From: Clostridiales bacterium
Lineage (GTDB): Bacteria > Bacillota > Clostridia > Christensenellales > Aristaeellaceae
Assembly: GCA_015056315.1 (NCBI GenBank)
Contig: SVGN01000009.1
Location: forward strand, 1 to 64,000
Direction: 5' to 3'
DNA length: 64,000 bases
The translations under genes were made by a program, and so were the position numbers. The notes below the pieces were generated by a model that saw only the letters and a list, made by a program, of their open reading frames with translations, searched no databases and was not told where the DNA came from. Shown here one piece after another: positions 41,122 through 45,197 of this stretch (its first letter is position 1; each line of letters begins with the position of its first letter).

Positions 41122-41976
41122 TTATTCGGCGGCGGGCTCGGTGGCTTCCACAGTCTCGGCGGCGGCGTCAGCGGGCACGAAGGTGGGAGCGAAACCGGCG
41201 TTCACGATCAGGTCGTACACTTCCTGGGTGTAGATGACCTGCTCCAGAGCCTTAACCCAAGCAGCCTCGGCGTTTTCGGGCTTGACAACAACGATGTTTA
41301 CATAAGCCTTGGCGGCTTCGCTGTCGGCAGCCTCAACATACAGGCCGTCCACATTGGGGATCAGCTCCACCAGGGTGGCGTTGTTGCCGTTGATAACGGC
41401 GTAAGCAACGTCAGCGCGGGCGCCGGGGATCAGCTCGGCGTTCAGCTCCATGATCTCCAGGTTGTAGGGGTTCTCAACGATATCCATGGGAGTGCAGGTG
41501 CTCTCCAGAGTGGTGCCTTCGGGCAGCTTGATCAGGCCGGCGTTCTGCAGCAGCAGCAGGGCGCGGTTCTCGTTGACGGGATCGTTGGGCACAGCAATGG
41601 CATCACCCTCGGCGATGTCATCCAGAGAGGTCTTGGTGCCGGCGTAGATAGCCATGGGCTCGAAGTGGGTGTAGATCACAGCCACCAGCTGCTCTTCCTC
41701 GGGAACCTCGGCATTGTAGCCGGCCAGGTAGGGCACATGCTGGAAGAAGTTAGCCATCACGTCACCGGCAGAGGTGGCGGGGTTCTCTACCACGTAGTCG
41801 GAAACCACGGTCAGCTCCAGCTCGTAGCCCAGAGCGGCCAGATCGTCCTTGACGAGCTCCATCACTTCGGCATGGGGGTTCTCGGTGGCGATCACGGAGA
41901 TCTTCTCAGCCGCGAAAGCAGAGGTCAGGGACAGGGAAAGAACCAGAGCGATAACCAGAGCAAGGATCTTCTTCAT
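41122..41976 (-). CDS. metQ: Methionine ABC transporter substrate-binding protein, without lipobox
   Basis: Extracytoplasmic receptor of the MetNIQ methionine importer (NlpA family). Of 284 residues, 1-22 form a signal peptide with a signal-peptidase-I site (LTSAFA before AEKISV); there is no Cys for lipid attachment, and the only Cys in the protein is in TLESTCTPM. ENPHAEVMELVKDDLAALGY and DPVNENRALLLLQNAGLI are typical NlpA segments. The C-terminus is an Ala/Glu/Thr-rich tail. It is last in the metN-metI-metQ operon. Confidence 0.9.
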   Translation of the reverse strand: MKKILALVIALVLSLSLTSAFAAEKISVIATENPHAEVMELVKDDLAALGYELELTVVSDYVVENPATSAGDVMANFFQHVPYLAGYNAEVPEEEQLVAVIYTHFEPMAIYAGTKTSLDDIAEGDAIAVPNDPVNENRALLLLQNAGLIKLPEGTTLESTCTPMDIVENPYNLEIMELNAELIPGARADVAYAVINGNNATLVELIPNVDGLYVEAADSEAAKAYVNIVVVKPENAEAAWVKALEQVIYTQEVYDLIVNAGFAPTFVPADAAAETVEATEPAAE

Positions 41977-41998: not shown

Positions 41999-42661
41999 TT
42001 AACGATGTTTATGGTCCAGGCGGCGTGTAATACGACCGCCGAAGACGGTGATGATCTGCACCAGCGCCACCAGCAGCAGGCTGGCGGAGTACATGATATC
42101 GAACTTGCGAACGTTCAGGCCCTTCACGATGGCAAGGGAGCCCAGACCGCCGCCGCCCGCAGCACTGGCCATGGCCGTGTAGCCAAGGATGGTGGTAACG
42201 CAGATGGCTGCGCCGTTTACCAGAGAGGGCACGGCTTCGGGCAGGAGCACCTTGTAGATAATCTGCCAGTTGGTGGAGCCCATGGATTGGGCTGCCTCGA
42301 TGATGCCGTGATCCACCTCGTCCAGCGAGCTTTCCACCATACGTGCAATGTACGGAAATGCGCTGATGATGAGCGGGAATACGATAGATTTGGTACCGAT
42401 GGCCGTACCGATCACCGCACGGGTAACGGGGAACAGTACCGCCAGCATAATGATGAAGGGGATGGAGCGCAGGAAGTTGATCACAACGCCCAGAACCGTG
42501 TTGAAGGTGGGGGAGGGCATAATGCCGTCCTTGCGGGTGACCACCAGCAGCACACCGAGGGGCAGGCCGATCACATAGGCGATCAGGCTGGACCAGAAGG
42601 TCATGTACAGGGTATCGAGGGTGCCCTCCCAAAGCATGGGCAGCAGCTTTTCCCAGGTCAT
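41999..42661 (-). CDS. metI: Methionine ABC transporter permease
   Basis: A 220-residue membrane permease with five hydrophobic segments. The EAA loop EAAQSMGSTNWQIIYKVLLP contacts the ATPase; FLRSIPFIIMLAVLFPVTR and LGYTAMASAAGGGGLGSLAI are MetI hallmarks. Its ATG overlaps the metN stop by one base (TGATG), implying coupled translation. With MetN and MetQ it forms the high-affinity L/D-methionine importer. Confidence 0.95.
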   Translation of the reverse strand: MTWEKLLPMLWEGTLDTLYMTFWSSLIAYVIGLPLGVLLVVTRKDGIMPSPTFNTVLGVVINFLRSIPFIIMLAVLFPVTRAVIGTAIGTKSIVFPLIISAFPYIARMVESSLDEVDHGIIEAAQSMGSTNWQIIYKVLLPEAVPSLVNGAAICVTTILGYTAMASAAGGGGLGSLAIVKGLNVRKFDIMYSASLLLVALVQIITVFGGRITRRLDHKHR

Positions 42662-43680
42662 CAGGCGTGCACCTCCTCAACGGTCATACTGGCTTCGCGC
42701 AGGTATTCGATCACGCGCTTCACATCGGTGGGGTCCTCCGGGCGGGCGATCATCATTTGCCCGAAGGATTTTCCGTTCAGCTGGCGCACATCTGCGGAGA
42801 GGATGTTCACATCCAGCCCCAGATCCTTCACCAGCTTGCTGATGATGGGTTGCCCGGCGGTGCTGCCATCAAACACGATACGGATGGCGGGCTGGGGCGG
42901 CAGCTCCTCCTGCTCGGGCAGGATGCCGAACAGGCGGCGGCCTGCGGCAGACTTGGTGTGCATGAACACATCATCCACGCTGCCTTCCTCGGCCAGCTTG
43001 CCGCCGTCCAGAATGGCCACCTTGTTGCAGATCTGGCGGATGACCGCCATTTCGTGGGTGATCAGCACCACGGTGATGCCCATCTCCTGGTTGATCTTCT
43101 GCAGCAGCGCCAGAATGCTCTGGGTGGTCATGGGGTCGAGGGCGCTGGTGGCTTCGTCGCAGAGCAGCATCTCCGGGTCGCCTGCCAGGGCACGGGCAAT
43201 GGCCACACGCTGCTTCTGGCCGCCGCTGAGCTGGGCGGGGTAGGCCTTGGCTTTTTCCTCCAGACCTACGATGCGCAGAAGCTCCATCACGCGGGCATCG
43301 GCTTCCTTCTTGGGCACACCGGCGATCTCCAACGGGTAGCGCACGTTGCGGGCAACGGTCTTCTGCATCTGCAGATTGAACTGCTGAAAGATCATTGCCA
43401 TACGGCGGCGGGTCTGAAGCAGATCCTTCTTGGTCATGGCCAGCACGTTCTGCCCGTCGATGAGCACCTGCCCATCGGTGGGGGTATCCAGCCGGTTCAG
43501 GCAGCGGATCAGCGTGCTCTTGCCTGCACCGCTCATACCGATGATGCCGTAAATATCGCCCTTTTCGATGGTGAGGTTGATGTTCTGCAGCGCATGTACC
43601 TCGCCGCCGGGGATCTGGTAGACCTTGCACAGATTCTTGATCTGGATCTGCGGACAGGTGTTTTCCGGAGTCACCATCAT
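42661..43680 (-). CDS. metN: Methionine ABC transporter ATP-binding protein
   Basis: A 339-residue ATPase. Walker A GMSGAGKSTL, signature LSGGQKQR, Walker B LLCDEATSALDP and the H-loop LITHEM are intact. After about residue 250 comes the NIL domain (IRIVFDGSTAGQPIISKLVK), which binds methionine and gives trans-inhibition in other MetN proteins. The start is ATG 43680 or 43677 after GAAAGG; an in-frame GTG at 43686 is too close. Expression appears controlled by the leader peptide and attenuator upstream. Confidence 0.95.
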   Translation of the reverse strand: MMVTPENTCPQIQIKNLCKVYQIPGGEVHALQNINLTIEKGDIYGIIGMSGAGKSTLIRCLNRLDTPTDGQVLIDGQNVLAMTKKDLLQTRRRMAMIFQQFNLQMQKTVARNVRYPLEIAGVPKKEADARVMELLRIVGLEEKAKAYPAQLSGGQKQRVAIARALAGDPEMLLCDEATSALDPMTTQSILALLQKINQEMGITVVLITHEMAVIRQICNKVAILDGGKLAEEGSVDDVFMHTKSAAGRRLFGILPEQEELPPQPAIRIVFDGSTAGQPIISKLVKDLGLDVNILSADVRQLNGKSFGQMMIARPEDPTDVKRVIEYLREASMTVEEVHA

Positions 43681-43705
43681 ACACACCTTTCTTTTGTCGA
43701 ATAAG

Positions 43706-43736
43706 AAAAACCCGCTTCGCGTATTTGCAAAGCGGG
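43706..43736 (-). terminator. Attenuator terminator before metN
   Basis: On the minus strand CCCGCTTTGC (43736-43727), loop AAATAC, GCGAAGCGGG (43720-43711), then TTTTT (43710-43706). It lies after the leader ORF and 26 bases before the metN start, so transcription must pass it to reach metNIQ. The loop and part of the 3' arm are complementary to codons 18-21 of the leader ORF. Confidence 0.85.
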
Positions 43737-43753
43737 CTCAAATGGTTAGCTCA

Positions 43754-43831
43754 TCAAGCGGCGCAACACAAATAACGCGAGTCTTCACACGCGCACATCA
43801 TGTACATCCGCATGGCACATAGGTTCGTCAC
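43754..43831 (-). CDS. Met/Cys-rich leader peptide of the metNIQ operon
   Basis: A 25-residue ORF starting with GTG at 43831, preceded six bases upstream by GGGAGGAG. Met occupies positions 7, 9, 11 and 12 and Cys positions 5, 13, 15, 22 and 23, so 7 of codons 5-15 are Met or Cys. Codons 18-21 contain CGCGTTATTTG (43779-43769), which can pair with CAAATACGCG (43727-43718) in the terminator with one bulged U, forming an antiterminator. An upstream GCGCG near codons 13-14 can instead pair with CGCGT. This is the 1:2/2:3/3:4 arrangement of ribosome-mediated attenuation. Confidence 0.75.
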   Translation of the reverse strand: MTNLCAMRMYMMCACEDSRYLCCAA

Positions 43832-43875
43832 GGAAGACTCCTCCCTTCATGGTGCTTGCACCTTGATTTGTGCAG

Positions 43876-43904
43876 ATGATACCATGGTTTGGAAGGGTTG
43901 TCAA
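43876..43904 (-). promoter_or_regulatory. Promoter of the metNIQ operon
   Basis: Minus strand TTGACA (43904-43899), 17-base spacer, TATCAT (43881-43876). Start point near 43869, giving a leader of about 190 bases before metN. Confidence 0.8.
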
Positions 43905-43958: not shown

Positions 43959-45197
43959 TCAGCCGTGCAGGTAACGCTCCTGCTCCTCGGTAAGGGTATC
44001 GATCTCCACGCCAAGAGCGGTCAGCTTGCGCAGCGCCACATCCTGGTCGATGTCCCGGGGCACGGAATACAGGTCGGGCTTCAGCTCCTTGCCGGTCTGG
44101 GCCATACGGCAGGCGCAGAGAGCCTGCAGCGCAAAGCTCATATCCATGATCTCCACCGGGTGGCCGTCGCCTGCCGCCAGATTGACCAGACGGCCTTCGG
44201 CCAGCAGGTATACGGTCTTGCCGTTGGGCAGCTTGAAGCCCTCGATGTTGTGGCGGATCTCGCCGCTCTCCACCGCCAGCTTGCGCAGGCCTGCCACATC
44301 CACTTCCACATCGAAGTGACCGGCGTTGCACATGATGGCACCTTCCTTCATGGTGAGCATATGCTCGGGGGTAACGATGTCCTTGCAGCCGGTAACGGTA
44401 ATGAACAGGTCGCCCAGAGGAGCGGCCTTGGCCATGGGCATCACGCTGAAGCCATCCATTACGGCCTCGATGGCGCATACGGAGTCTACCTCGGTAACGA
44501 TCACCTTGGCACCCAGGCCCTTGGCGCGCATGGCAACGCCCTTGCCGCACCAGCCGTAGCCGCCTACCACAACGGTGCAGCCCGCAATGTTCAGGTTAGT
44601 GGTGCGCATGATGCCGTCGAACACGCTCTGACCGGTGCCGTAGCGGTTGTCGAAGAGATGCTTGCAATCCGCATCGTTGATATTGAACATGGGAAAGTTG
44701 AGGGTGCCCGCATTGGCGCGCTGGCGCAGACGGATCACGCCGGTGGTGGTCTCCTCGCAGCCGCCCAGCAGGTTCTCGGCCCACTCGGGGTGCTCCTCGT
44801 GGAGGATGTGCACCATATCGCCGCCATCATCCACGATCACATCGGGCTTCTCGGAGAGGGCACGGCACAGGTAGTCGTGGTATTCCTCCTCGTTGCAGCC
44901 GTGGGTGGCGTATACGGTAACGCCGCTGGCAGCCAGGGCTGCGGCTACGTCATCCTGGGTGGAAAGGGGGTTGGAGCCGGTGGCGAACACCTGGGCACCG
45001 CCACGCATCAGCACCTGCGCCAGGTAGGCAGTCTTTGCCTCCAGATGCACAGAAACGGCGGCCTTCATGCCCTTGAAGGGCTGGGTCTTTTCGAACTCGT
45101 CTGCAATGCTGTTGAGCACAGCCATGTGGCGGCGGGCCCACTCGATCTTCTGAGCGCCCTTTGCGGCCAGTGCCGCATCACGGATGATGGATGCCAT
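43959..45197 (-). CDS. ahcY: S-adenosylhomocysteinase
   Basis: Reversibly hydrolyses SAH to adenosine and homocysteine using bound NAD. The 412-residue protein carries EEHPEWAENLLGGCEETTTG, NINDADCKHLFDNRYGTGQS (catalytic Asp/Lys/His region) and the NAD motif VVVGGYGWCGKGVA near residue 210, ending in the short basic tail common to the bacterial type without the 40-residue insertion. GGAGG precedes the ATG, 4 bases after the DUF554 stop, so the two are cotranscribed. Confidence 0.96.
   Translation of the reverse strand: MASIIRDAALAAKGAQKIEWARRHMAVLNSIADEFEKTQPFKGMKAAVSVHLEAKTAYLAQVLMRGGAQVFATGSNPLSTQDDVAAALAASGVTVYATHGCNEEEYHDYLCRALSEKPDVIVDDGGDMVHILHEEHPEWAENLLGGCEETTTGVIRLRQRANAGTLNFPMFNINDADCKHLFDNRYGTGQSVFDGIMRTTNLNIAGCTVVVGGYGWCGKGVAMRAKGLGAKVIVTEVDSVCAIEAVMDGFSVMPMAKAAPLGDLFITVTGCKDIVTPEHMLTMKEGAIMCNAGHFDVEVDVAGLRKLAVESGEIRHNIEGFKLPNGKTVYLLAEGRLVNLAAGDGHPVEIMDMSFALQALCACRMAQTGKELKPDLYSVPRDIDQDVALRKLTALGVEIDTLTEEQERYLHG

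Follow-up and report, generated by a model that had tools for sequence, protein, structure and literature searches.

The window examined here is a 64,000-nucleotide stretch of a Clostridiales bacterium genome (contig SVGN01000009.1, positions 1 to 64,000). On its minus strand, ahcY (43959-45197) and metNIQ (43680-41122) flank a promoter, a Shine-Dalgarno (SD) sequence, a 25-codon ORF and an intrinsic terminator (Table 1). The proteins encoded at the locus are adenosylhomocysteinase, MetN with a NIL domain, MetI and MetQ. The leader ORF has its own ribosome-binding site, sits between the promoter and the first gene, and keeps its frame in relatives. It contains Cys codons at positions 5, 13, 15, 22 and 23 in addition to its cluster of Met codons. 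The core stem of the terminator is formed by arms at 43736-43727 and 43720-43711, followed by T's at 43710-43706. Some codons of the leader are rare in ahcY-metNIQ: CGG makes up 2 of the 48 Arg codons there, and TGT 1 of the 18 Cys codons.

Table 1. Features of the metNIQ leader region in the window, listed in the direction of transcription.
Feature	Position	Strand	Evidence
Sigma-70-type promoter, TTGACA-17-TATCAT	43876..43904	-	11/12 consensus matches
Helix P0, 5' strand ATCAAGGTGCAAGCAC, near the presumed transcript start; partner 43769-43753	43852..43867	-	swap test
Shine-Dalgarno GGGAGGAG of the leader ORF	43838..43845	-	sequence and alignments
Candidate helix A, 5' strand GAGTCTTC, overlapping the SD; partner GAAGACTC at 43786-43779	43833..43840	-	sequence
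Leader ORF, GTG start, 25 codons, peptide MTNLCAMRMYMMCACEDSRYLCCAA	43754..43831	-	sequence, kept in relatives
Met codons 7, 9, 11 and 12, putative sensor cluster	43796..43813	-	conservation, stall simulation
Antiterminator, 5' strand CGCGTTATTTG, codons 18-21	43769..43779	-	pairing comparisons
Helix P0, 3' strand GTGTTGCGCCGCTTGAT, from the third base of codon 21 through codons 22-25 and the stop to one base beyond	43753..43769	-	
Antiterminator, 3' strand CAAATACGCG, in the loop and 3' arm of the terminator	43718..43727	-	pairing comparisons
Intrinsic terminator, 10-bp core stem and T run	43706..43736	-	sequence, folding
metN, ATPase with NIL domain	42661..43680	-	
metI, permease	41999..42661	-	
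metQ (NlpA), lipoprotein	41122..41976	-	

An original prediction, made from the window alone, had proposed a Met/Cys leader peptide and attenuator controlling metNIQ. Re-reading the sequence confirmed the coordinates and letters that it gave for the promoter, leader ORF, terminator and metN, as well as the positions of Met 7, 9, 11 and 12 and Cys 5, 13 and 15. Codons 18-21 pair with the terminator loop and 3' arm as it described, with 10 pairs and a single bulged U (CGCGTTATTTG with CAAATACGCG), and the RNA from 43681 to 43869, which it had suggested folding, is more stable than all 200 shuffles (z -3.1). The statistics of the window are modest: the pairing of leader and terminator loop (-14.5 kcal/mol) is matched by 194 of 3000 shuffles, and at least four Met among 24 internal codons has P ~0.012. 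By composition the Cys content is more improbable than the Met content (at least five Cys in the leader, P ~2e-5). Taken singly, the window provides only moderate evidence, and the case rests on its relatives.

Within the genus, a MetN search (E<=1e-100) found metN in 16 of 17 genomes, at 17 loci. A leader is present at all 16 loci where the DNA ahead of metN could be read; L012 was left out of this count because its contig stops 20 bases before metN. Fifteen of these leaders are of the main type, typically with the peptide MTNLCAMRMNMMCACDFSPCYLCCVA, and Met7, 11 and 12 are invariant among them, while Met9 is replaced by Cys in two and the residue separating Met7 and Met9 varies (R, Q, S). 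Starts are GTG or ATG, stops are TGA or TAA, and the length varies by one codon. The remaining, diverged leader (L018, on G001:C3) precedes the second metN of its genome; it is short, MKQFAMRMSKRAGCLRV, with the same peptide as L073 of genus g6, and this metN and its leader were possibly acquired.

We then consider the family as a whole. A search of 250 family genomes with model R1 (E<=0.01) gave matches, some of them weak, in 81 genomes and 22 of 50 genera, and no match in the other 169 genomes. Fifty-three fetched stretches and 13 loci from the R1 search made 66, from which 10 were dropped as lacking a Met-rich leader ORF (L087, L089, L093-L099 and L101, all without metN downstream). The 56 that were kept, together with 14 leaders of the genus, make up a final set of 70 leaders from 16 genera. 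L004 and L009, which are cut at contig ends, are in alignment A2 and outside the 70; L012, L036, L038 and a few partial or duplicate R1 matches were unused.

All 70 leaders have an in-frame ORF with Met: at least one internal Met occurs in 70/70 and at least two in 67/70. With the start chosen by script, 62 of 68 leaders had their Met core in frame; in the six misframed leaders and the two without a scripted start, inspection found an in-frame start with an SD, at a long spacing in L068. Frame, SD, start and stop are retained while the length shifts by whole codons. A test for coding by third codon position was negative, in that variable ORF columns show no third-position excess. A loose promoter pattern, a TTGA-box and TAnnnT at a spacing of 17-19, is found in 70/70. 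Of the 56 leaders retained from other genera, 50 stand directly before metN (50/66 of all fetched), and the remaining six lead to metA and then metN (L100), to a DUF218 gene (three, g25) or to a contig end (two). In the three g25 leaders (L071, L077, L082), where the next gene is DUF218, metN adjoins on the opposite strand in G040. Relatives thus retain the leader ORF, the Met codons in it and the terminator, in a comparison that the original prediction had called for. The 70/70 and 50/56 are partly circular, as Met-rich members went into building the search model and none of the 10 dropped loci had metN downstream. The contrast between Met and Cys is less so, because the members of the model are Cys-rich too: Cys ahead of the antiterminator (counting as far as a few residues beyond the Met core) occurs in 42/70 leaders, and five of the 70 have no Cys anywhere. 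The Met core of most relatives includes CGA, a codon that ahcY-metNIQ use for none of 48 Arg codons.

The antiterminator is supported by comparisons at two levels. In the 15-sequence genus alignment, 93.3% of its cells are paired, against 23.5-71.4% in slid controls, and its covariation score is 0.195 compared to 0.142 in shuffles, none of 500 of which scored as high. Pairs changed on both sides number two in this alignment, no excess over shuffles (230/500). Between genera, with one member drawn per genus, cognate strands pair more strongly than swapped ones (-13.3 vs -11.3 kcal/mol, p 0.0015), which is the covariation that the original prediction had proposed looking for; 10 of the 70 leaders go against this, their own antiterminator falling short of the swapped mean, and one more ties. 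The terminator helix has 98% of its cells paired in the genus. Sequence comparison brings out an ORF, Met codons, a terminator, a covarying antiterminator and downstream met genes.

We also found a pairing that was absent from the original prediction, helix P0, between the 5' end of the transcript and the end of the ORF with its stop. Cognate P0 strands outpair swapped ones both within the genus (-14.8 vs -13.5, p 0.009) and across 16 genera (-13.3 vs -11.6, p 0.007); in the window alone, 160 of 3000 shuffles pair as well. P0 is weak or absent where the scripted 5' UTR is short (most g19 and part of g35). It may account for the conservation of the LCCAA codons and stop, and hence of Cys22-23. 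The Cys22-23 pair need not be the counter-signal that had been proposed, as these codons fall within the 3' strand of P0. Helix A, between the SD and codons 14-17, has a related helix elsewhere, in a register shifted between clades, with 85% of cells paired; this is suggestive only of a plausible element. A post-stop core pairing of GACATTCGC with GCGAATGTC is clear in some clades (L041, L043, L074, L086); because the window's genus and most of g19 show it weakly or not at all, it was left out of the general model.

We simulated stalls by folding the window RNA with the ribosome footprint excluded and the RNA cut before the terminator 3' arm is complete. With an empty A site, the antiterminator probability is 0.73 at Met7, 0.85 at Met9, 0.93 at Met11 and 0.95 at Met12; it is 0.95 at Cys13, 0.35 at Cys15, 0 at Cys22 and 0.04 at the stop. 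This calculation agrees with the original proposal that the antiterminator segment is exposed by a ribosome stalled at the Met cluster and covered by one at the stop. Since a stall at Cys13 is placed like one at Met12, a shortage of Cys could likewise cause induction in the window's clade. With the full-length RNA, the terminator probability is 1 in every ribosome state; since the terminator wins throughout, the switch would have to be kinetic. Unlike in a classical attenuator, the antiterminator probability with no ribosome is 0.86 before the 3' arm is complete. An untranslated leader would, in this model, not be a clearly terminating state, and P0 might act against the antiterminator when the leader is untranslated.

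Altogether, comparison of the sequences makes it very probable that metNIQ is preceded by a methionine-specific, ribosome-mediated transcription attenuator that senses charged tRNA-Met. A ribosome would translate the 25-codon leader close behind RNA polymerase. When Met-tRNA is scarce, it would stall at Met 7-12 and leave codons 18-25 exposed, and these would pair with the terminator loop and flanking arms ahead of 3' arm synthesis; the antiterminator so formed would allow metNIQ to be transcribed. With plentiful Met-tRNA, a ribosome at the stop would mask codons 18-25, and the terminator would form. Helix P0 at the 5' end would compete with the antiterminator. We infer that the ORF is translated, that charged tRNA-Met is the signal, that commitment is kinetic and that P0 acts as a competitor.

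The regulatory signal could instead be cysteine, or the sulphur amino acids together. The window clade has Cys at 5, 13, 15 and 22-23, Cys content is rarer by composition than Met content, and Cys13 is as well placed as Met12 in the stall simulation. However, Cys is missing ahead of the antiterminator from 28 of the 70 leaders and missing altogether from five, whereas Met is present in every one; a stall at Cys15 or Cys22 drops the antiterminator to 0.35 or 0, and the downstream gene is metN in 50/56 kept leaders from other genera. Met codons in 70/70 compared to proximal Cys in 42/70 indicate methionine as the signal, which upholds the preference expressed in the original prediction. We dismissed cysteine on conservation and consider it quite unlikely. 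Of the "Met/Cys" leader first proposed, the Met part stands, and the Cys part is lineage-specific.

A metabolite-binding riboswitch, with the ORF incidental, would be consistent with the multiple long-range helices (P0, helix A, antiterminator) and the strong nucleotide conservation, but no Rfam family matches at its gathering score (best 23.3 bits vs gathering 59, E 0.44), and the reading was dismissed on that lack of a match. Frame, SD, start and stop are kept, with length changes in whole codons, and the leaders of other families, compared by eye, share little beyond Met codons, terminator and antiterminator, all of which makes a riboswitch highly improbable. Nascent-peptide arrest would have an MRM core halt the ribosome, perhaps via methionine or SAM in the exit tunnel, in the manner of TnaC, an arrest peptide responding to tryptophan. 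The core ATGCGAATG occurs in 50/70 family leaders and also in other families (L262, L271-L274), CGAATG occurs in 57/70 and 13/16 genera, and CGA is unused elsewhere (0/48 Arg codons in the four genes counted, ahcY-metNIQ). Still, between families it is mainly Met richness that is common rather than peptide sequence, and the residue flanked by Met7 and Met9 varies even in the genus (R, Q, S). Pure arrest therefore appears unlikely. We find it doubtful, if somewhat less remote, that the ATGCGAATG core (Met, CGA, Met) is a slow or arrest site sharpening Met sensing, which would make the leader a hybrid of codon starvation and programmed stalling in a genome with three RNA devices.

To see how far the methionine attenuator extends, we surveyed the order, which we take to be Christensenellales. 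Model R2 (396 genomes, E<=0.001) gave matches in 27 genomes. The family accounts for 17 of these; the other 10 belong to different families, and most of their matches are weak or partial. The weaker loci read were L218, L220, L223, L226 and L230, and L226 was rejected as a leader on reading. G554 (family f10) has Met-rich leaders before metF (L218) and before a Cys/Met PLP enzyme taken as metY (L230), G045 of the window's family has one before a metQ-like gene (L220), and G571 (f14) has one before metN. We also took the best 30 metN loci from a MetN search that matched 102 of 248 genomes. A first rule of at least four Met was passed by 6/30 metN loci, 0/30 metY-like loci and 0 on reverse strands. 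After reading the sequences, we loosened the rule, asking for clustered Met in an ORF of 12-45 codons with an SD ahead of it. Under the loosened rule, 16 of the best 30 metN loci have a Met-rich leader, with 0.23 expected from shuffles; one of the 16 (L288) looks spurious, and L290 has a leader by eye, though failing the rule. Among the best 30 metY-like loci, none passed under either rule (0.42 expected for the loosened one), giving no sign of metY-like genes as an order-wide target.

None of the five window-family loci in this metN survey (L264, L268, L276, L278, L283) passes before metN. At six loci metQ lies ahead of metN (L263, L264, L269, L276, L278, L283), and a Met-rich ORF precedes metQ in three of them (L263, L269, L276). 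For the 20 of the 30 metN loci that were submitted to Rfam, no riboswitch and no T-box was found. Twenty-one leaders from 10 families, hand-picked as convincing, were used to examine terminator and antiterminator: a scripted search located a hairpin and T run behind 21/21, and cognate antiterminators were stronger than swapped ones between families (-17.4 vs -13.7, p 0.002), with two (L263, L284) weaker than the mean swapped. These sequences suggest that similar leaders occur in several families of the order. Among named records, the script's rule detected a leader at 19/19 loci with MetN at least 72% identical and at least 200 nt upstream; with less similar MetN (largely Lachnospiraceae and Legionella), 3/57 loci pass, one of them convincing (L150). 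In L150, whose record bears the title uncultured Clostridia bacterium and whose MetN shares only 53% identity, metN is preceded by the leader MSRSMMMMEMGMMGMCMCAAS, which is very rich in Met.

The genome of the window appears to carry other methionine RNA devices. Rfam gave no match for the SAM-I riboswitch (RF00162) or the T-box (RF00230) at the metNIQ locus. The sole SAM-I match in this genome (L187, G000:C2:21346-21449) is located upstream of metK, which suggests separate RNA sensors for SAM synthesis and for the uptake of methionine. RF00162 is found in 85/100 family genomes, mostly as a single copy. We fetched 16 RF00162 loci, eight of them main matches and the other eight picked from the second or weaker matches. 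At eight of the 16, own genome included, metK comes first, and the others have a non-metK gene or a stretch that is too short. Second, weaker SAM-I matches at L194, L195, L196 and L198 (g35, g38, g26) lie ahead of genes with no obvious link to methionine; two or more of these genes resemble each other. The window's genome also has 12 T-box matches, five above the Rfam cut-off. A match before metG (L297, G000:C99:6627-6828) is just under it (91.4 vs 93 bits), and GAACATGG in it could be an ATG specifier. For R2, the genome has one strong leader, and the next match is at E 0.007. One genome thus seems to read methionine via a SAM riboswitch (metK), a T-box (metG) and the ribosome (metNIQ).

S-box and T-box elements are the usual RNA controls of met genes in Bacillota, and leader-peptide attenuators of trp, his, leu and ilv are known from enterobacteria. 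Like the enterobacterial attenuators, the leader described here combines a short ORF rich in the regulated amino acid, genes for that amino acid downstream, and mutually exclusive antiterminator and terminator; here, in contrast, the amino acid is methionine, the target is an importer, and the ORF ends in a segment that base-pairs with the transcript's 5' end. It also differs from SAM-I and T-box elements, neither of which is at the metNIQ locus while both occur elsewhere in the same genome (metK, metG). The nearest precedent found is metL of Streptomyces lividans TK24, a predicted Met-containing leader, MSTTSDRTPATEATTTPGARCMCRRMCAF, likewise ahead of metNIQ (PMC8079986). It differs in belonging to Actinobacteria and having a leaderless transcript, and a typical Rho-independent terminator is missing according to the authors (PMC8079986). 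PMC1262725 states that methionine operons of Actinobacteria show no conserved structures, and describes Cys leaders at cys operons.

Ribosome-mediated attenuation in Bacillota is likewise described for Listeria Rli60 (ilv-leu; PMC5864092) and the Leu-rich ilv-leu attenuator of Staphylococcus aureus (PMC5794164), both of which differ in concerning branched-chain amino acids and Bacilli. His leaders of hisS*/hisZ in Firmicutes (PMC2965389) are also leader peptides replacing T-boxes, but for histidine and hisS-family genes. Among the matches listed in open-licence literature, which covers few subscription papers, none describes such a Met leader in Clostridia. The original remark that a described translated Met/Cys leader was not known in this group is consistent with this for Clostridia, but outside them metL has been predicted before metNIQ of S. 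lividans (PMC8079986).

The leader thus appears to be genuine and conserved, an attenuator whose mechanism is of a known kind and whose Met specificity we did not find described for Clostridia. Mostly uncultured Clostridia seem to use the translating ribosome, rather than an S-box or T-box, for metNIQ, and single genomes seem to extend the use of leaders to metA, metF, a metY-like gene and metQ. Annotation resources gain covariance models, peptide patterns and a base-pairing map, and why three RNA devices read one amino acid becomes directly testable.
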